A stretch of DNA of 36,441 nucleotides from contig NZ_FOIT01000003.1 of NCBI RefSeq assembly GCF_900110815.1, positions 254,906 through 291,346 on the forward strand, read 5' to 3'. The position numbers were made by a program, and so were the translations under genes. The stretch is from Aliicoccus persicus (GTDB lineage Bacteria; Bacillota; Bacilli; Staphylococcales; Salinicoccaceae). Below the pieces are notes generated by a model. The model had not been told where the DNA came from, ran no database searches, and saw only the letters and a program-made list of their open reading frames with translations. Below are positions 3,101 to 29,843 of the stretch, one piece after another (the first letter of the stretch is position 1; the number at the start of each line of letters is the position of its first letter).

Positions 3101-4302
3101 TTATCGACGAATGCGTGAACGAATGCATTTTGCCAGTTGCGTGACATGTATGAAATTTCATCATGGATCGTTGAATCTGGATTACCCACATCATGGATAA
3201 CGATTCCGTCAGGCTTACCTTTACCATCTTGATACGCATACTCAGGTAAGTGTGCGATATGGTCGTAAGTCACTGCTGGCGCGTTAAATCCGTTACGATC
3301 GATGTAGCGGTTGATATCAGAAATAGCGTTTGAAAGTGTTGTCGTTTCGCTTTTACCCCAAGTGTAAATTTCATCCGCTAATTCTTGGTCATGCGCACTT
3401 AACATTGCAGCAACATCTTGGTAGAACGCTTCATCTACTTCAAGTGTTTCAGCATCTTCTTCAAGGATTAATGCTTTTTCTTCATCCGTTAAGTTTTCAA
3501 TCGCAGATTCGATTGCAGCTAATTCTTCTTCAGATAGCGGAACCTCTTCTTCTGAAACTTCTTCAGCAACGATATCTTCTTCAGTTTCCACATCAGTATC
3601 GTCTTCAGCGACAACATCTTCTTCCGTTTCCACATCAGCATCGTCTTCAGCGACAACACCTTCTTCAATATCTAATTCAGTGTCGTCTTCAGCGACAACG
3701 TCTTCTTCCGTTTCCACATCAGTATCGTCTTCAGCGACAACGTCTTCTTCAGTATCTAATTCAGCATCGTCTTCAGCGACAACGTCTTCTTGAGTATCTA
3801 ATTCAGTATCGTCTTCAGCGACTACGTCCATTTCAGTTTCTAATACAACATCGTCTTCAGCGACTACGTCTGCTGGTTCAGTTGCTGGTACTTCTTCGAC
3901 GTCTTCAGCTGGTGCTTCGTACTCTTCAATTGTGACATCATCTCCGAGTAGATCTACGTCTACTGGTTCTAAGTTATCGACTGTTTCTGTTTCTTCAGCG
4001 ACTTCTTCTGTCACTACTTCAGCCGATTCTTCTTCTATGTATGTATCAAATTGAGCATCGCTGTCTTCTTCAACAATCTCTATGACATCGCTCGCTTGAA
4101 TCAAATCTTCTTCTACAACTTCTTCAGAAACTACCTCTTCTGTTGTCTCGACCGTTTCGACTACATCATCACCGATGTTTTGAATATTCTCATCCGCTTC
4201 ATCATTTATATCGTACTCATCCGCGTTTGCTGTGTTATGAATAGTTAACAACGCAGTTGTCGATAAAATAGTCGGAACTATAAATTTACCTTTTTGCATC
4301 AT
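175..4302 (-). CDS. atl: Bifunctional autolysin (amidase / glucosaminidase) with GW modules
   Basis: Peptidoglycan hydrolase of 1375 aa, exported and held at the surface by GW modules. Order: signal peptide (1-27, ending TANA); acidic Glu/Asp-rich region (28 to about 280) with roughly eight 14-aa repeats starting VVAEDD (146-247); Amidase_2 domain (about 366-508) with likely zinc ligands H370, H476 and D490 in IVIHD, WSHEG and SPDPH; six SH3-like GW modules ending in GW(M/V)..(D/E)(D/E)(V/L), separated by Pro/Lys/Asp linkers; C-terminal glucosaminidase (about 1188-1375) with catalytic-type Glu1247 in FLETGHG. This is the domain order of staphylococcal Atl. I chose the ATG at 4302 because GGAGGG lies 8 nt upstream; an in-frame start 17 codons earlier has no ribosome site. 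The acidic repeat region replaces the usual Atl propeptide and is the unusual part. Monocistronic. Confidence 0.95.
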   Translation of the reverse strand: MMQKGKFIVPTILSTTALLTIHNTANADEYDINDEADENIQNIGDDVVETVETTEEVVSEEVVEEDLIQASDVIEIVEEDSDAQFDTYIEEESAEVVTEEVAEETETVDNLEPVDVDLLGDDVTIEEYEAPAEDVEEVPATEPADVVAEDDVVLETEMDVVAEDDTELDTQEDVVAEDDAELDTEEDVVAEDDTDVETEEDVVAEDDTELDIEEGVVAEDDADVETEEDVVAEDDTDVETEEDIVAEEVSEEEVPLSEEELAAIESAIENLTDEEKALILEEDAETLEVDEAFYQDVAAMLSAHDQELADEIYTWGKSETTTLSNAISDINRYIDRNGFNAPAVTYDHIAHLPEYAYQDGKGKPDGIVIHDVGNPDSTIHDEISYMSRNWQNAFVHAFVDKDHIIEIADTDNLAWGAGRYSNQRHIQIELVHHDNAHDFAKSINNYADYVANLLYKYKLPATDADSSNGDGSIWSHEGVSHILGGTASPDPHQYFEKFGYSYDEFVGLIGGKYDDLYHSRVNPSLNLPVEEGTTNQNITVNSNNRGVYGSVQDVRTSNGSQYAGQSFNVKRTAVYNYDTYYLLENASGTIGWMHEDDVTATSSAPSPTPTPKPTPDPKPDPKPTTPDPEPETSPVVNTGVESVDATPVQVLDGSVEIYASVYSSAANGVKATPHVGKTLYTTDTITRNNVKYFGVSTSANGPSIGWVKADELKNVNVKPAPTPPKVEKPSTGHKDEVVLKNSARILSSVFNQNNYHSPDAFGKDNLFASESYTHDSVKYFGVSKSVNGARLGWVKASDLAFINAGNTAAPTPKPDPKPDPKPTPTPPVQTPQVKDQVTFNNGAKVLSTVFNQSKSLDGSAFGKDDIYVTETYTHNNVKYYGVSKSVNGARLGWVKASDLSVANKANTPKPEATRPEETTPEVSTPAPTKPVNRPNTNVSRVNPESVKFNANNVRLYSSVYSGASISANPFASSNLFATETVTFDNVKYFGVSRTQNGARLGWVREQDLRFEPPTPSKPVIPTTPTTPDAGNESPALGSNAVRVGDDVNIYYSVFSDGAISSRPFSNSMLYTGETYKHNNVNYYSVSKKQNGPRLGWVRENDLRFVSVGVGGDISAPAPVRPEAPKDKVEFIDDVSIISDKNINFSLQDMLDKQVALSYKPQYNLGTSWRDASAEEVVKFLDPEYYNTEELKYAFLDLAKAQDIDPEILNERLLQNQGVLSNQGEAFSQAAKQYGVNEIYLISHAFLETGHGTSRLSSGVKLDSSGNLSEEGTAYYNMFGIGAVDNNALMGGAQRAQNMGWDTPEKAIVGGAQFIARNYLERGQNTLYSMRWNPENPGTHQYATDITWTEHNAKSMNRYYEQLGLDGKYYSRYNLR
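3600..3860 (-). repeat. 42-bp in-frame repeats encoding the VVAEDD acidic segment
   Basis: Within the autolysin N-terminal region, about six well-conserved and two degenerate 42-bp units encode 14-aa repeats with a constant VVAEDD followed by variable TELDTQED, TDVETEED or similar. The units are alike at DNA level (cgtcttcagcgacaac recurs), so copy number could change by recombination without a frameshift. Confidence 0.85.
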
Positions 4303-6957: not shown

Positions 6958-6984
6958 TGTGTGGATGTTTGGGTTGGTTATCAT

Positions 6985-7353
6985 AAAGCTGTGAGCTCTC
7001 AAGTTTATGAGAGAGGCGTTTGCGTAAAGCTGTGGTTTTTCAAGTTTATGAGAGAGGAGTTTTCGTAAAGCTGTGGTTTTTCAAGTTTATGAGAGAGTCG
7101 ATTGCGTAAAGCTGTGGTTTCTCAAGTTTATGATAGAGTCGCTTGCGTAAAGCTGTGTTTTCTCAAGTTTATGAGAGAGGCGATTGCGTAAAGCTGTGGT
7201 TTCTCAAGTTTATGAGAGAGGAGTTTTCGTAAAGCTGTGGTTTTTCAAGTTTATGAGAGAGTCGATTGCGTAAAGCTGTGGTTTCTCAAGTTTATGATAG
7301 AGTCGCTTGCGTAAAGCTGTGGTTTCTCAAGTTTATGAGAGAGGCGATTGCGT
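6985..7353. repeat. Nine-copy 41-bp tandem repeat with an internal 164-bp duplication
   Basis: Units start with aaagctgtgg at 6985, 7026, 7067, 7108, 7149, 7190, 7231, 7272 and 7313, an exact 41-bp period. Most units contain a short inverted repeat, TTTYTCA-agttta-TGAGAGA, 7 bp with G.T pairs tolerated. Units 2-5 are repeated as units 6-9 with only two differences, so four units duplicated together recently. 41 is not a multiple of three, and no open frame is kept across the units. This array fills most of the gene-free stretch 6889-7478. Confidence 0.9.
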
Positions 7354-7478: not shown

Positions 7479-8354
7479 TTAGTTTGGTCTGTTTCGAATC
7501 ATTAAGTATGCAAATGCAAGTATTCCGAGTAATGCGAATGTCCCGATTGTAATGTAGATGAATGGGCGATATCCACTCGTTGAAGATGGAAGGATTTCAT
7601 CGATAGGTTCAACTTCCTCTGTGTCCTCAGCGGAATCAGATTCTTCTGTCGATTCCTCAACCTCAGGCTCTTCCTCAACTTCAGTTTCTTCTTCTACCTC
7701 AGGCTCTTCCTCAACTTCAGTTTCTTCTTCAACTTCAGGCTCTTCCTCAACTTCAACTTCCTCGGTTTCCTCTTCTTCAGTCGTTTCTTCTTCCTCTGCA
7801 GCAGCTTCTTCCTCAGCTTCACGTTCTGCCTCTTCTTGCGCAAGTCGTTCAGCTTCAGCCTCTTCCTCAGCTAATCGCTCAGCTTCTTCGGCTTCTGCAA
7901 TTGAATGGCTGATTCGAGTGAGTTGTGCTTCAGATGGACGACCATCTCTAACTGTCGTGCCTGTTAAACTGCCCATACGTTGATATAAATAGAGCATGCG
8001 CTCGTTGACTACGGGCGTTTCTTCAACAACTGGTGTTTCCTCAACTTCTGGCTCTTCTTCTACTTCAGGTTCCGGATCAGGCTCCGGCTGTGGATTCGGT
8101 GTTGGTTCTGGTGTAGGATCCGGCGTTGGATCCGGCGTCGGGTCTGGTGTTGGCTCTGGTGTTGGCTCCGGTTCCGGCTCTGGTTCCGGCTCAGGGTCTG
8201 GAGTAGGTTCTGGCTCCGGCTCCGGTGTCGGTTCCGGCTCAACTTGGTCCCCATTATCGCCACCATCAGCCTGCGCAAACACTGTAAACTGCACGCCTAC
8301 AAATAGAATAGAAATTATAAATATAAGACTAAAAATTTTATTAAAAGATTTCAC
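7479..8354 (-). CDS. Pro/Glu-rich surface stalk protein with C-terminal anchor
   Basis: A 291-aa low-complexity secreted protein. N-terminal signal peptide ([20 protein letters not shown], cleavage likely near FAQA); a stalk of P-x-P-E/D repeats ([11 protein letters not shown] type); a short non-repetitive middle ([16 protein letters not shown], then [16 protein letters not shown]); an Ala/Glu-rich, probably helical stretch; E-V-E-E repeats; then LPSSTSG, a hydrophobic segment of about 20 residues and the basic tail RNRPN. The tail resembles a sortase signal, but LPSSTSG is not a proper LPxTG, so it may simply be membrane-anchored. A GTG start at 8354 is preferred for its weak GGGA ribosome site; another GTG four codons earlier (8366) has none. 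No catalytic domain; likely spaces or decorates the cell surface. Function unknown. Confidence 0.75.
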
Positions 8355-10184: not shown

Positions 10185-11801
10185 ATGAACCTTAAAAGAG
10201 CTTCATTGCTTTCAATATTGAGTGGAACACTCGTTGCCTCAATGTTTGTTGGTGATGTCAATGCACAAGAAGATGGACAAGATGTAGAGAACAATGACGA
10301 GCAAGTTGAAGACCAAGTGGATGATGTAGAAAATACTGAAGATGCTGGTGCTACAGAAGAAGTAGAAGACGAAGCGATGCCAAACAATCCGCAAGGCGCA
10401 GAATTACGCTTTGATTTGAGTCGTGATGTTATACAATATGGGACAGAGTCACATGTGGATATCAATCTTAATTCAGTGACTGAATATGTTCCTCAAGCAC
10501 GTTTAGATACGACAATTGATTTCCAAAGCAATCAACTTGATAGAATTAATGAATTAAGAGCAGCAGAAGGATTATCTCCTGTTTCACTTAATCCTGAACT
10601 TTCTAAAGTTGCTTACATGAAGTCAGTCGATATGACAGTGAATAACTATTTCGACCACAACAAACCAGGATACGGTTCAGTGAATGAACAAATCCAATAC
10701 TTCACTGGAGAAGTAAACCCGTATACGAACTTAGCAGAGAACATTGCTTACTCTTCAGGTCATAATGAATTCCGTGACGTATATGGTTTAGAAGGATTAG
10801 AAATGGACGCGATGGGCTTCTGGGAAGAAAGTGAAACACACTATAACGAAATAATGGACCCAGAAAACACAGAAGTGGGTATCGGTGCATACAGCTTTTC
10901 TGTTGGAGATACAAACTATGTCGTATTCACTCACTTATTCACTGAAGATCCATTAGCTGAAGAAGATGGTGGTCAAGACGAAACTGGTGTAGATGATGGC
11001 ACTGGTGGCGTAGAAGACGGCGTTGACGATGGTACTGGCGGCGTTGAAGACGGCGGTCAAGACGAGACTGGTGTAGATGATGGTACTGGTGGTGTTGAAG
11101 AAGAGGACGAAACAGGTGGCGTGATCGATGATGGCAGTCAAGATGAGACTAGCGGAGAAGACGGTACTGGTGGCGTCGATGAAGGTACTGATGAAGTTAT
11201 CGATGAAGATTTAGAAGCTGATGCAGATGCCGATGCAGATGCTGATGCCGACGCAGACGCTGATGCAGATGCTGATGCCGACGCAGACGCTGATGCAGAT
11301 GCTGACGCTGACGCAGATGCCGATTCCGATGCGGATGGTACAGAAGATGATACAGGTGGCGTAATCGGTGATGAGTCAGACGCTGACGCTGACGCAGACG
11401 CAGATGCCGATGCAGACGCAGATGCCGACGCAGACGCCGATGCAGACGCTGATGCTGACGCAGACGCTGATGCCGACGCTGATGCAGATGCCGATGCTGA
11501 TGCCGACGCAGATGCCGACGCTGACGCCGATGCTGATGCAGACGCTGATGCAGATGCCGATGCTGATGCAGACTCAGATGCCGACACAGATACTGACGAA
11601 GGTACAGATACAGACGGTGACGCTGACTCAGATGAAACAGTAGAAGAAGATGATTCTGAAGAAGCGGTCGAAGGTACGATTCAAGGTGATGACGACAACA
11701 ACTTATTACCTGCAACGGGTCTTGCTTATGTCGGTTACGGTGCGATTGCACTCGTACTTGCTGGGCTTGGAGCATTCTTATTATTCTTCAGAAGAAAATA
11801 A
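10185..11801 (+). CDS. LPATG-anchored CAP-domain surface protein with Asp-Ala repeats
   Basis: A 538-aa wall-anchored protein. Signal peptide 1-27 (ending VNA); acidic linker; CAP/SCP-PR1 domain (about 115-253) with [50 protein letters not shown] and VVFTHLF; 12- to 15-aa repeats of the type [15 protein letters not shown] (264-340); two long (Asp-Ala)n tracts with occasional Ser; sortase signal LPATG (508-512), hydrophobic span and tail RRK. The Asp-Ala tract has the place and acidity of the Ser-Asp repeats of staphylococcal Clf/Sdr proteins, but the residue alternating with Asp is Ala. Bacterial CAP proteins of this type have no firmly known activity. Ribosome site AAGGGAGAA. Ends at a strong terminator. 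Confidence 0.92.
11214..11640 (+). repeat. Asp-Ala coding hexanucleotide repeat tracts
   Basis: Two tracts of a degenerate 6-bp repeat (GAY GCN), about 11214-11340 and 11374-11640, split by a copy of the DDTGGV-type repeat. Synonymous third positions vary (gat/gac, gca/gcc/gct), as in the Ser-Asp tracts of staphylococcal adhesins; the tract can change length by 6-bp steps without a frameshift. Confidence 0.9.
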
Positions 11802-15681: not shown

Positions 15682-15866
15682 TATATAATAAAATCAACAA
15701 CATTTCGAGTAAGCAAGCTTCAAATAATTATTCTAATTCAAATTGGTACAAATTCTTCTTGATACACATTCAAATTTCACAAATCAAATTGAAGTCTAGC
15801 TCGTTTACAAATTAAATTAAAGTTCTTAAAAATCTTCCGAAATTAAGGTTTTCTAAAATTTTAAAA

Positions 15867-16070
15867 CTAGTGCTTGCCGACTCTGTTGTTGATGATATCG
15901 TGACCTTTAGTTAACATTTCTTCTCGAAGTTTATTGAATTGTTCGTTGCTTATATTGTGTTGCTCTTCATTGACATAATCTTGTGAATCAGCTTTCGTAT
16001 TATACATCGCTGAAGATTCATCTTTCACTTCGTGTGCAAGGTCATGGAATTCTCGTTCTTTGTTCATCAT
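15867..16070 (-). CDS. Small hydrophilic protein of unknown function
   Basis: A 67-aa charged protein (MMNKEREFHDLAHEVKDE...), mostly predicted helical, with no transmembrane segment, cysteine or signal peptide. The ribosome site GAGGTG lies 6 nt before the ATG at 16070; an earlier in-frame GTG overlaps that ribosome site and is not used here. It has its own downstream terminator, which supports a real gene. I do not recognise the family. Confidence 0.6.
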   Translation of the reverse strand: MMNKEREFHDLAHEVKDESSAMYNTKADSQDYVNEEQHNISNEQFNKLREEMLTKGHDIINNRVGKH

Positions 16071-16170
16071 GACAATCACCTCTCTTTAGTGAATAAATAC
16101 CCCTTTATATTATATTTAAACATTTACTTGCATTATCATACCTGAGTATGATAATTTAGTTGGTTGCTGG

Positions 16171-16320
16171 TCGCTAGTTCGGTGGTGGTTTAGGGGCTTG
16201 AAGTAGCGAAAAATGTGGAATATCGCTAACCCAAGTCTTTTTTCGAGCCCGAGTTAGCGAAAAATCTAAATAGTCGCTAACTCAAGGGCGATTTTTGTTC
16301 TGAGTTAGCTATTAATGATG
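16171..16320. repeat. 51-bp hairpin repeat, block A (arms TCGCTAACTC)
   Basis: Three units beginning TCGCTA at 16171, 16223 and 16274. Each has a 10-bp left arm, an 18- to 19-nt loop and the complementary right arm (GAGTTAGCGA or GAAGTAGCGA), then a spacer of about 12 nt rich in A. Unit 3 and the unit 2/3 junction pair best. Confidence 0.8.
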
Positions 16321-16364
16321 ATTAATTCTTTTTCCCAGTCCGAATTGTTTGTGAAAAATCTCAG

Positions 16365-16510
16365 ACTGCTACTTCACAACATTTTTAGGGCTTGAAGTAG
16401 CAGGCAAATCAAAAAGCTGCTACTTCAAAGCAATTTTTGAGCTCGAAGTAGCAGGTAAATCAAAAAGCTGCTACTTCAATGCAATTTTTGAGCTCGAAGT
16501 AGCAGGTAAA
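16365..16510. repeat. 51-bp hairpin repeat, block B (arms CTGCTACTTC)
   Basis: Three units starting at 16365, 16416 and 16467 (exact 51-bp period). Left arm CTGCTACTTC, loop of the type aaagcaatttttgagctc, right arm GAAGTAGCAG, spacer gtaaatcaaaaag. All three stems are perfect. Confidence 0.88.
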
Positions 16511-16558
16511 GTAGTGTGATCTATTTCTAGACCTAAATATATTTGAGATTATTCAACC

Positions 16559-16596
16559 CTGCCAATTCAAGCCATATTTTCTATATGAATTGGCAG
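16559..16596. repeat. Isolated hairpin with a different arm sequence
   Basis: Perfect 11-bp stem CTGCCAATTCA / TGAATTGGCAG around a 16-nt loop, lying between blocks B and C. Same architecture as the 51-bp units but an unrelated arm sequence. Confidence 0.8.
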
Positions 16597-16628
16597 ACGA
16601 CCGAAAAATTCTATGAGGAAATTTATCT

Positions 16629-16924
16629 CGTGCTTACTCACGATGAATTTCGGGGTCGAGTAAGCATGAAACCTGAAACCGTGCTTACTCACGATGATTT
16701 TCAGGCTCGAGTAAGCATGAAACCTGGAACCGTGCTTACTCACGACGAATTTCAGGCTCGAGTAAGCATGAAACCTGGAACCGTGTTTACTCACACCGGT
16801 TTTCTGGCTCGAGTGCGCACGAAACTAAAATCCGTGCGCACTCACAACGATTTTCAGGCTCGAGTGAGCACGAAACCAAAATCCGTGCGCACTCGGACGA
16901 CTTTTTCGTCGTGAGTGAGCACGG
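16629..16924. repeat. 51-bp hairpin repeat, block C (arms TGCTTACTC then TGCGCACTC)
   Basis: Six units starting at 16629, 16680, 16731, 16782, 16833 and 16884, all at 51 bp. Units 1-3 have arms CGTGCTTACTC / GAGTAAGCATG. Unit 4 has a left arm of the first type and a right arm GAGTGCGCACG of the second; units 5-6 have left arm CGTGCGCACTC with right arm GAGTGAGCACG. The loop consensus gatnnttttcaggctc is shared with the other blocks in part. Because 51 is a multiple of three, long repetitive open frames exist on both strands here; I do not regard them as genes. With blocks A and B this fills most of the gene-free stretch 16071-17049. Confidence 0.9.
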
Positions 16925-16996
16925 CCACCTAGAATCACCTCAATCAATGCAAAAAGCACCCCAAAATCAACCAAACCAATCGAAACCAAATCAAAA

Positions 16997-17029
16997 CAAA
17001 AAGCCACACCACTCAACAAGTGGTGCGGC
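16997..17029 (-). terminator. Intrinsic terminator of folD
   Basis: On the minus strand GCCGCACCACT pairs with AGTGGTGTGGC (one G.T/mismatch) around TTGTTG, then TTTTTG follows. 20 bp past the folD stop. Confidence 0.88.
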
Positions 17030-17049
17030 CGTCAAAACCAAATCAATTC

Positions 17050-17901
17050 CTATTCCAATCCATTATTCCATTTCGCAGCGAGCAATGTGTTGTTCAACAC
17101 CATTGTAATTGTTAATGGGCCAACGCCACCTGGTACGGGTGTGATCCAGCTTGCAACTTTCTCAGCGGATTCGAAATCGACGTCTCCAACTAACTTACCG
17201 TCAACAACTGTGTTACCTACATCAATTACAATCGCGCCTTCTTTTAAGTCGTCGCCTGTAATCAATCCTGGTTTACCAACTGCACTGACAACAACATCGA
17301 AGTTCTTTAATTGATCAACCATATTCTTTGTGCGTGAGTGCATCAATGTCACAGTTGCGTTCTCATTCGTCAACAACTTCGCAACGGGTTGGCCGACGAT
17401 GTGTGAGCGTCCAATCACTGCAACAGTTTTTCCTTCTAAAGATCCCGTATGCTTCAACAATTCCATGATCCCAAGTGGTGTACATGGCTTAAACGTACGT
17501 TGGCCTGTATACAAACGGCCGATGTTCACTGGGCTGAACCCATCGACATCTTTTTCTGGCGCGATTGCCTCAAGCACTTTATCTTCAGAAATTTGCTTAG
17601 GCAGTGGTACTTGCACTAAAATACCATGTACTTTTTCATCGTTGTTCAAACGTTCGATCTCTGCCAACAAATCTGCTTCAGACGTATCGCCATCCAAATG
17701 AACAATGTCACTTGTCATGCCGATTTTCTCTGCTGCTTTGTTTTTTGAACGCACGTAGCTTAAAGACGCACCGTCATCACCGACGATAACGACTGTTAAG
17801 TTTGGCGTCATGCCGTTCTCTTTTAGTTTTTCAACTTCCGCTTGCAAGCCCGCGCGGTAGTCCTTTGCGATTTCCTTACCATTTAATAATTGTGCTGTCA
17901 T
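17050..17901 (-). CDS. folD: Bifunctional methylenetetrahydrofolate dehydrogenase / cyclohydrolase FolD
   Basis: A 283-aa cytoplasmic enzyme that interconverts 5,10-methylene-, 5,10-methenyl- and 10-formyl-tetrahydrofolate. 10-formyl-THF is the one-carbon donor for PurN and PurH encoded across the divergent region. Motifs: [14 protein letters not shown] with the catalytic Lys of the YxxxK pair; [47 protein letters not shown] (nucleotide-binding loop); and VDVGN...GDVDF then [12 protein letters not shown]. Usual family length. Ribosome site GGAGG 8-9 nt before the ATG. Divergent from purE with PurBox-like sites close to its start, so it is probably controlled together with the purine genes. 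Confidence 0.98.
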
Positions 17902-28791: not shown

Positions 28792-28834
28792 AATCCCTCA
28801 ATCAGAGTTGATTCTGAAAGAGGGGTATTTTTTT
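28792..28834 (+). terminator. Intrinsic terminator after the small gene (end of the purine transcript)
   Basis: An AT-x-CCTC...TCAGA / TCTGA...GAGGGGTAT interrupted stem followed by seven T. This is the first clear terminator after purD. It abuts the stop codon of the reverse-strand Abi gene. Confidence 0.8.
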
Positions 28835-29843
28835 AATGGTGATCTATTGTACGGTACTGAATAAATCTAGCAATCCGTTCTACGATATCCTCTGGAAGAT
28901 TTAGTATTTGATAAATAGATTTCTGATTAATTAGCTGTGTTGGAGAATATGTATCTTTGTTTACAAAATGGATGATTACAAAAATGAACTCATCTAAAAA
29001 CCTATAAATTAAGTTAACATCTTGTGTATACATTAAGATGAGGTTAATAGCAGCTAACAAATCTTGTAGACCTCTATTATTATCCAAGTCATCTTGCTTT
29101 AATAATATAGAACCAAAAAAGTGTTTAGACGAAGTTGATTCAAGGTGGTTAATTATCTTTTCTTTAAAATCTCTCTTACCATGAGCTGCAAAATTTCTAT
29201 ATTCTCTTAGAAAGTGAAAAGAATGATGAAAATATCTTTCATGATGATTCTCATAAAGATTACTTCTAGAAAAATAATCTTTAAATAATTCTTCTTTTAA
29301 ATGTTTGGGTAGTATATTAGACCAAGAAATCACTGTAAAAAACGACACATCTTGAACAATAATCCAAGGCGGAATATTTTTCTTTTTTTCTTTAAAGTAA
29401 TGAGTAACAGAGTTTTCTTTACAATTTTCAATAACTTTGTGAATTTCATTTAAAGTAGATCCCCGAAAGCCTTTATAATTACAATAATTGTTCCTATCTA
29501 AATATTCATCATGGTAAACTCCGAACTCTCTAGCGATAATATGAGATAAACGTGAACGTAATGACTTCTCAATGTATAAGATATACTTAAAAATTAATGA
29601 AGAGATATCAGAGTACAAATAGTAAATGGTTGTAAAATCATTAAATGTTGTGTTGTCAATCATCGTATCTGATTTATCAGTTTCTAAAAAATGTTGTTTA
29701 AATCCGTTTATTAGTGAGTAGTAAGAATGATTCTTAAGAGCAAATATAGCATGATACTCATCGTCTACAATTATATTTTTTTCTTTGATTTTTTCAACTA
29801 ACTTGTGATACTCATGAAATGGTACTTCTTCTAATTCAGACAT
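28833..29843 (-). CDS. Abi_2 family abortive-infection protein (AbiD/AbiF-like HEPN RNase)
   Basis: A 336-aa cytoplasmic protein with the pattern of the Abi_2 family: N-terminal IIVDDEYHAIFALKNHSYYSLINGF (given in part), the helix YILYIEKSLRSRLSHIIAREFG (85-107 region), PPWIIVQDVSFFTVI (158-172), and a HEPN-type Rx4H motif in EYRNFAAHG (R216, N217, H221). HEPN proteins of this kind are RNA-cutting toxins; AbiF/AbiD proteins stop phage growth. Codon use is clearly more AT-rich than the adjoining purine genes, suggesting acquisition. The start codon directly follows the T-run of a terminator-like hairpin, and its only Shine-Dalgarno (AGGAGG) is inside the 3' arm of that hairpin, so expression seems to depend on read-through and unfolding. 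Convergent with the small gene at 28578. Exact subfamily (AbiF versus AbiD) needs a profile search. Confidence 0.85.
   Translation of the reverse strand: MSELEEVPFHEYHKLVEKIKEKNIIVDDEYHAIFALKNHSYYSLINGFKQHFLETDKSDTMIDNTTFNDFTTIYYLYSDISSLIFKYILYIEKSLRSRLSHIIAREFGVYHDEYLDRNNYCNYKGFRGSTLNEIHKVIENCKENSVTHYFKEKKKNIPPWIIVQDVSFFTVISWSNILPKHLKEELFKDYFSRSNLYENHHERYFHHSFHFLREYRNFAAHGKRDFKEKIINHLESTSSKHFFGSILLKQDDLDNNRGLQDLLAAINLILMYTQDVNLIYRFLDEFIFVIIHFVNKDTYSPTQLINQKSIYQILNLPEDIVERIARFIQYRTIDHH

Follow-up and report, generated by a model that had tools for sequence, protein, structure and literature searches.

Satellites of constant size and variable sequence, with repeats of 52 nt or of 20 to 21 nt, were described in Bacillus and other Firmicutes by Subirana and Messeguer, who term them enigmatic (PMC8161180). 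According to the part of that report available to us, one genome may carry several families that share a repeat length and have unrelated sequences, noncoding repeats of other lengths are few, a single repeat often holds short characteristic sequences together with their reverse, and 20 to 21 nt corresponds to two helical turns. Its authors suggest that the satellites either suit a protein for which the repeat size must be constant or act as RNA; their transcription in B. coagulans has been reported (PMC8161180; PMC8625621). The available parts of PMC2267715, on stem-loop families, and of PMC6749651 contained nothing that we found on 51- or 52-nt repeats. The arrays described here are of this published kind, with one or two lengths common to unrelated sequences in a genome (42 of 42 arrays), and the array studied here fits the published main class of 51 to 53 nt with its 51 bp, though 41 bp is commoner in the sample of its own genome. 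Compared with the Bacillus satellites, so far as the available text describes them, the present arrays have units of 51, 41 and 61 bp in a Staphylococcus-like lineage, inverted and homotypic arms that are conserved against free loops, loops and spacers that differ by 10 bp, matching sites between species, and a bias toward convergent genes. In the literature searched, which lay outside subscription papers and was available in part, we found no report of matched half-sites, of 10-bp differences, or, for the Staphylococcus lineage, of 41-, 51- and 61-bp classes.

In Escherichia coli, BIME arrays consist of alternating inverted repeats downstream of genes, and a role in DNA topology has been proposed for them; the present arrays are alike in this arrangement and differ in sequence and unit. 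REP and REPIN elements resemble them in having inverted conserved ends with a less conserved spacer, an extragenic position, some tandem clusters, and a preference for unidirectional or convergent ORFs (PMC3116915; PMC3733652). As those elements appear in the available parts of these papers, they differ from the present arrays, which have a fixed 51-bp period, occur in array form as a rule, and lack a Y1 transposase in all 10 array genomes.

The window, a stretch of 36,441 nucleotides from Aliicoccus persicus, contains a 51-bp tandem array at positions 16172 to 16921 that comprises 13 units in a 9-nt core frame (Table 1). In each unit a 9-nt arm core and its inverted counterpart flank an 18-nt loop, a spacer of 15 nt follows, and the steps are mostly 51 bp. 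Tandem Repeats Finder reported 51-bp arrays at 16366-16510 (2.8 copies, 91% matches) and 16629-16888 (5.1 copies, 85% matches), and in a hairpin scan both the loop register (mostly 16 to 18 nt) and the spacer register (11 to 15 nt) paired. The 51-bp hairpin array of the original prediction is therefore real, with arms where it had placed them and able to pair across either loop or spacer; its count of about twelve units becomes 13, and its 51-bp period holds within blocks but gives way between them to spacings of 92, 91, and 71 bp. Arm sequence does differ by block, with several arm types over the 13 units, and the further hairpin that had been said to carry its own arm pair is unit 7. The switch of type noted inside the fourth unit of the last block was likewise found, the right arm pairing over 11 nt with the left arm of the following unit across the spacer (16811-16843). 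Unit 13 has an inner stem within its loop.

Table 1. The window array, unit by unit, and its neighbours.
Feature	Positions	Strand	Description
Small ORF, 67 aa	15867..16070	-	Other side of array from folD
Unit 1	16172..16208	+	Arms CGCTAGTTC/CGCTACTTC, type a, imperfect, 8/9 matched, loop 19
Units 2-3	16224..16310	+	CGCTAACTC-type arms (type C), 8/9 matched each
Stretch between units 3 and 4	16311..16366	+	Flanking unit centres 92 bp apart; possibly a decayed unit
Units 4-6	16367..16504	+	Arms TGCTACTTC (type A), 9/9 matched, loop 18
Stretch between units 6 and 7	16505..16559	+	91 bp centre to centre; no unit recognised
Unit 7	16560..16595	+	Arms TGCCAATTC (type B), 9/9 matched
Units 8-10	16631..16768	+	Arms TGCTTACTC (type D), 9/9 matched
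Unit 11, hybrid	16784..16819	+	Left TGTTTACTC, right TGCGCACTC type; 6/9 matched
Units 12-13	16835..16921	+	Left TGCGCACTC (type I), right TGCTCACTC type (F); 8/9 matched
Terminator-like hairpin after folD	17002..17030	-	13 pairs, then T-rich tail; outside array
folD	17050..17901	-	Reads towards array

The array is noncoding, as satellites are, and sits between folD and the 67-aa ORF; a 123-aa ORF at 16543-16914 that crosses the 51-bp repeats is probably spurious. At 16132-16155, upstream of the small minus-strand ORF, there is a perfect palindrome, possibly an operator, whose 10-bp arms enclose a loop of 4 nt. The best matches of FolD in the named genome collection were from Macrococcus and Staphylococcus (68 to 73% identical), and the folD neighbourhoods of 80 genomes of that collection had no period-51 array at a score of at least 80. 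Two Bacillus folD neighbourhoods carry arrays of 52 and 53 bp (L070 4976-5381 and L075 12636-12836), and the Bacillus 52-bp consensus includes TTCGGACAA and TTGTCCGAA. Elsewhere in the window, a gene at 28833-29843 encodes an Abi_2 (abortive-infection-like) domain, and repeats at 3560-3871, 7653-8240, and 11213-11584 lie inside predicted protein genes and have periods that are mostly multiples of three.

Arrays of this class recur in the A. persicus genome, in its sister genus, and in more distant genomes, which sets aside a unique local duplication. About 32 such regions are present in the 2.06-Mb genome (8 contigs), where sequence searches with two blocks returned 20 and 23 matches, themselves included, and a two-unit covariance model built from 34 ungapped stretches of this genome returned at least 125 matches at E 0.01 (best 150 of 1044 candidates scored). 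Because only the best first-look candidates were scored (150, 131, 27, and 10 per genome in the own-genome, family, order, and class scans, with stricter filters in the last two), the match numbers are minimum values and matching genomes may have gone unnoticed. At least 9 of 33 genomes in the family match the model, including A. persicus itself and 6 of 6 in the sister genus (five that are 99% complete, with at least 21 to at least 94 matches, and one that is 80% complete, with at least 1); two genomes of another genus have one borderline match each. Within the order, where the threshold was E 1e-4, at least 9 of 157 genomes match, including G060, G079, and G057 from another family, and at least 3 of 398 do so within the class (A. 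persicus, G079, and G380), G380 being the one further genome beyond the order, again a lower bound. Arrays of the GAGTGAGC type occur in A. persicus, the sister genus, G060, and G079. Plasmid and phage records gave no array match by blastn.

Some sites are common to several species. In 12 groups of sister-genus arrays the flanking ORFs match in two to four species (in one group the unit scan found no unit in one member), and no array gap was the same in A. persicus's own genus and the sister genus, where neighbourhoods were only loosely similar (L036/L191, L012/L223). At matching sites in two sister-genus species, a different 52-bp array adjoins the 51-bp array (L196 1411-1608 and L198 1911-2105), and the A. 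persicus loci L209, L211, and L212 join 41-bp arrays and 51-bp-type units.

The arrays lie preferentially between convergent genes. With genes called as longest ORFs, so that all such counts are approximate, the 33 A. persicus arrays were 18 convergent, 12 tandem, 2 divergent, and 1 not assignable, and the 28 sister-genus arrays were 16 convergent, 11 tandem, and 1 divergent; some of these intervals also hold neighbouring 41- or 52-bp arrays, and some of the sister-genus arrays in these counts are orthologous and hence not independent. Sampled gaps longer than 100 bp were divided 25/78/27 (convergent/tandem/divergent) in A. persicus and 27/94/34 in G006, one of the sister-genus genomes. The convergent excess was marked in both (18 of 32 arrays versus 25 of 130 gaps, Fisher P = 7e-5; 16 of 28 versus 27 of 155 gaps of G006, P = 3e-5), and divergent gaps tended to be avoided (P = 0.07 in A. 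persicus and 0.02 in the sister genus).

Nine arm cores recur across A. persicus loci and a tenth is found in one region; among the 32 regions, TGCTACTTC is present in 12, TGCCAATTC in 19, and TGCTTACTC and TGCTCACTC in 18 each, in addition to others. In a scan that did not require pairing, but did require closeness to ten listed cores and counted the T and C variants of TGCT[TC]ACTC as one type, the two arms across the loop were of the same type in 84% of 172 units, compared with 45% (and at most 57% in any of 500 shuffles) when right arms were shuffled within arrays. Across the spacer the figures were 73% of 131 and 44%. The unit scans used for arm and loop conservation, gap phase, hybrids, and array ends accepted a unit only if 6 or more of its 9 arm positions matched and its arms were close to listed cores, and the claim of arm matching thus rests on the scan that was free of the pairing requirement. 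In an alignment of the 34 two-unit stretches, which left out 9 odd-loop units and 5 singletons (two of these outside the family), 90.8% of cells were paired versus 73.9% in shuffles, a value that fell to 27 to 35% when the partner was slid by 1 to 3 columns and that is somewhat above the 86.6% of the spacer register; 131 cells had changed on both sides versus 46.8 in shuffles. Among 137 units with two exact types, 97 were pure and 40 hybrid, and 37 of the 40 hybrids join types one base apart, which makes a one-sided change followed by a matching change a plausible path.

The geometry of the units is rigid. Exact facing half-sites stand 27 bp apart across the loop in 133 of 137 cases (within 26 to 28 bp) and 24 bp apart across the spacer in 94 of 106 (within 23 to 25 bp), and 116 of 153 successive unit distances in A. 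persicus are exactly 51 bp. The 13 irregular gaps (41, 42, 70, 71, 71, 82, 82, 91, 91, 91, 92, 98.5, and 111.5 bp), which are few and of which some may share ancestry, keep the phase of 51 at a 10.2-bp period (V = 0.79, reached by 0 of 20,000 uniform simulations), with R values of 0.85 at 10.0, 0.71 at 9.5, and 0.43 at 11. Between lineages, loop or spacer length steps by 10 bp: two G060 arrays with arms GAGCTAGCG and the G079 array (GAGTGAGCG) have a loop of 28, a spacer of 15, and a unit of 61 bp; G060 array L189 has 18, 15, and 51 bp (8/9 pairs); and the G057 array, with GAAATTGCC-like arms, has 18, 5, and 41 bp (7 to 9 of 9 pairs). The G060 arrays L177 and L187, with poor pairing or another register, were left out of this comparison. 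Arrays may also have a defined end, as by an eye count GGC follows within a few bases at 16 of 32 A. persicus array ends on one side (including window 16922-16930); CGGC follows TGCTYACTC-type units, GGCT or GGCC follows several others, and the internal spacers of TGCTYACTC-type units read CGAAAC, not the end motif.

Arrays of other sequence obey similar lengths. In stretches sampled by coordinate from three genera (400 kb and the window in A. persicus, 400 kb in G006, 200 kb in G015, and 400 kb in G010), all 42 of 42 arrays judged noncoding and with a period of at least 30 had units of 41, 42, 50, 51, or 52 bp. They form 24 sequence clusters, 12 at 41 to 42 bp and 12 at 50 to 52 bp, of which fewer are fully independent, since the window family accounts for two and two other A. 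persicus clusters share a TGTGCGG stretch. Arrays under 1.9 copies and those judged coding were dropped (6 of 23 in A. persicus, 1 of 8 in G006, 2 of 7 in G015, 1 of 14 in G010, 4 of 4 in G043, 1 of 1 in G002, and 3 of 3 in G039); a coding call was possible only for periods divisible by three, so the set may lack some noncoding arrays with periods of that kind. In the A. persicus sample, 41 bp was the commoner class (13 of 17 noncoding arrays). Nine of 12 arrays with 50 to 52 bp have 7- to 10-nt arms in the consensus unit, and the 41-bp arrays mostly have weaker inverted repeats. No such noncoding array was found in G043 (400 kb), G002 (103 kb), or G039 (200 kb), and the two in the more distant G060 (200 kb), of 45 and 40 bp, fall outside the pattern. 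Two more intergenic arrays of the window, at 1-100 and 6984-7353, have 41-bp units of other sequences.

The sister genus bears on whether pairing itself is what is kept. One type, TGCTYAYTC, makes up most of its arms, and two species have TGCTCACTT-like variants of it. Once units without clear loop orientation were excluded (29 of 117 in the sister genus and 19 of 146 in A. persicus), sister-genus arm positions 7, 9, and 10 varied independently on the two sides (51, 47, and 67 Watson-Crick pairs of 88, versus 52.9, 43.3, and 65.3 expected), and position 11 covaried (72 versus 54.9). The T/C choice at position 7 of TGCT[TC]ACTC arms in A. persicus is also nearly free (TA 15, CG 16, CA 12, TG 11). 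Arms in the sister genus agree far more than loops, at 0.82 to 0.86 versus 0.35 to 0.36 between different sites, 0.87 versus 0.56 between orthologous sites, and 0.91 versus 0.69 within arrays; the arm identities are upper estimates because the scan took arms near five listed cores, but it rarely skips successive units (one 101-bp step in twelve groups). The proposal that pairing is kept while sequence drifts, under selection or a copying mechanism acting on pairing, consequently stands in part: A. persicus arms match beyond chance, intermediates exist, and position 11 covaries, but three sister-genus positions are independent, and the arm sequence itself, not only its complementarity, is common to loci with unrelated loops.

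Our leading explanation, which we hold tentatively and with somewhat less than even confidence, is that the arrays are helically phased, homotypic half-sites for a putative DNA-binding protein, mostly between convergent genes. The 9-bp inverted half-sites would be read in double-stranded DNA by one putative sequence-specific protein or a few related ones, which would engage both half-sites of each unit at set spacings (27 bp across the loop and 24 bp across the spacer, start to start) and stack along a single helical face from unit to unit, five turns of 10.2 bp making 51 bp. The need for both half-sites to suit one and the same protein, and not base-pairing, would then make the arms change in concert, and whole-unit tandem duplication would spread each arm version along an array. 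Such half-sites agree with the fixed geometry, the matched arm types, the conserved arms with free loops, and the 10-bp differences between lineages, as well as with the intergenic, mostly convergent sites and the sites that match between sister-genus species; from these we infer the putative protein, its mode of binding, and some function in the stretch between converging transcription units, for example to organise or insulate its DNA. Several points count against this reading. The several arm types in one genome would need a tolerant protein or several proteins, the equal-length arrays of unrelated sequence (24 clusters) are not explained by one sequence-specific protein, the irregular gaps are few, single units fold well as RNA and a hairpin would also give type matching across loops, and the phasing of A-tracts at 10.2 bp is weak. 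The unit length common to unrelated arrays may reflect some process that measures length, or else several proteins built on one architecture.

A neutral satellite, in which replication slippage duplicates 51 bp and arm complementarity is maintained by hairpin-templated correction (template switching at inverted repeats), is in our estimate unlikely. It would account for the near-copies within a block, mismatches included (e.g., four F/D units in a row), for hybrids that are mostly one step apart, and for different arrays side by side at some sites. Such correction should also symmetrise the edges of the loop, yet pairing between symmetric loop positions is close to expectation (the highest, at one sister-genus position, being 35 versus 27.6), which speaks against it, as does an arm sequence common to sites with unrelated loops; slippage alone gives no reason for lengths of only 41 to 42 and 50 to 52 bp.

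A selfish element of the REPIN kind, with inverted conserved ends, a free loop, a transposase acting in trans, tandem pile-up, and no benefit to the host, seems rather improbable. The absence of a Y1_Tnp domain from all 10 array genomes tells against it and against the original suggestion of a REP/TnpA-Y1 (RAYT) transposase, the one partial Y1 match being in the 80% complete sister-genus genome with a single array match. Several species carry their arrays at matching positions, which is also at odds with it, and it has no place for the rigid 27/24 geometry and the 10-bp differences. The anatomy is nevertheless REPIN-like, with conserved inverted ends, a less conserved spacer, tandem clusters, and compensatory changes as given in the available part of PMC3116915; copies are many and dispersed, the ORF preference is that reported for REPs in the available part of PMC3733652, and GGC follows closely at half of the array ends on one side in the same eye count.

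Less probable still are tandem hairpins acting in the 3' region of transcripts as weak terminators, RNase barriers, or small RNAs. Three single units do fold well as predicted RNA on both strands (-13.6 to -26.4 kcal/mol), the arrays are 3' and convergent in location, the 52-nt satellites of Bacillus coagulans are transcribed according to the available parts of the two reports cited above, and 15800-17100 has 3 terminator-like sites versus 0.8 in shuffles. The strong site (13 pairs) lies outside the array, however, and the two inside have 7 and 5 pairs. On neither strand are G-U mismatches in excess of A-C relative to independence: the two classes are equally depleted in A. persicus (G-T 28 and A-C 26, versus 76 and 76 expected) and number 46 and 71 versus 56 and 81 in the sister genus, so that neither is favoured and no strand looks selected as RNA. 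The independent variation at three sister-genus positions also argues against a transcript structure, and loop lengths of an RNA should not step by 10 bp. Rfam had no match at the gathering score in the window (best subthreshold E of about 0.5). An array of intrinsic terminators, which would have a GC-rich stem, a short loop, and a T run immediately behind, was rejected on the 18-nt core loop and the strong terminator-like site outside the array, and curvature by phased A-tracts on the weakness of the 10.2-bp signal (top harmonic in 4 of 44 arrays).

Overall, arms that covary in a tandem inverted repeat are not necessarily a sign of RNA or hairpin structure. The arrays give constant-size satellites a readable anatomy of half-sites, fixed distances, one-turn differences, matched arm types, and sites that match between species. 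If the half-site reading is true, insertion of a full helical turn would be tolerated and that of a half turn would not. On a broader and more doubtful view, which we offer as a possibility, Staphylococcus-like bacteria may carry a chromosome-wide system of satellite arrays whose units span four, five, or six helical turns. Its arms would be interchangeable recognition words evolving in matched pairs, and its arrays would serve as phased protein filaments to mark or insulate the intervals where genes converge.
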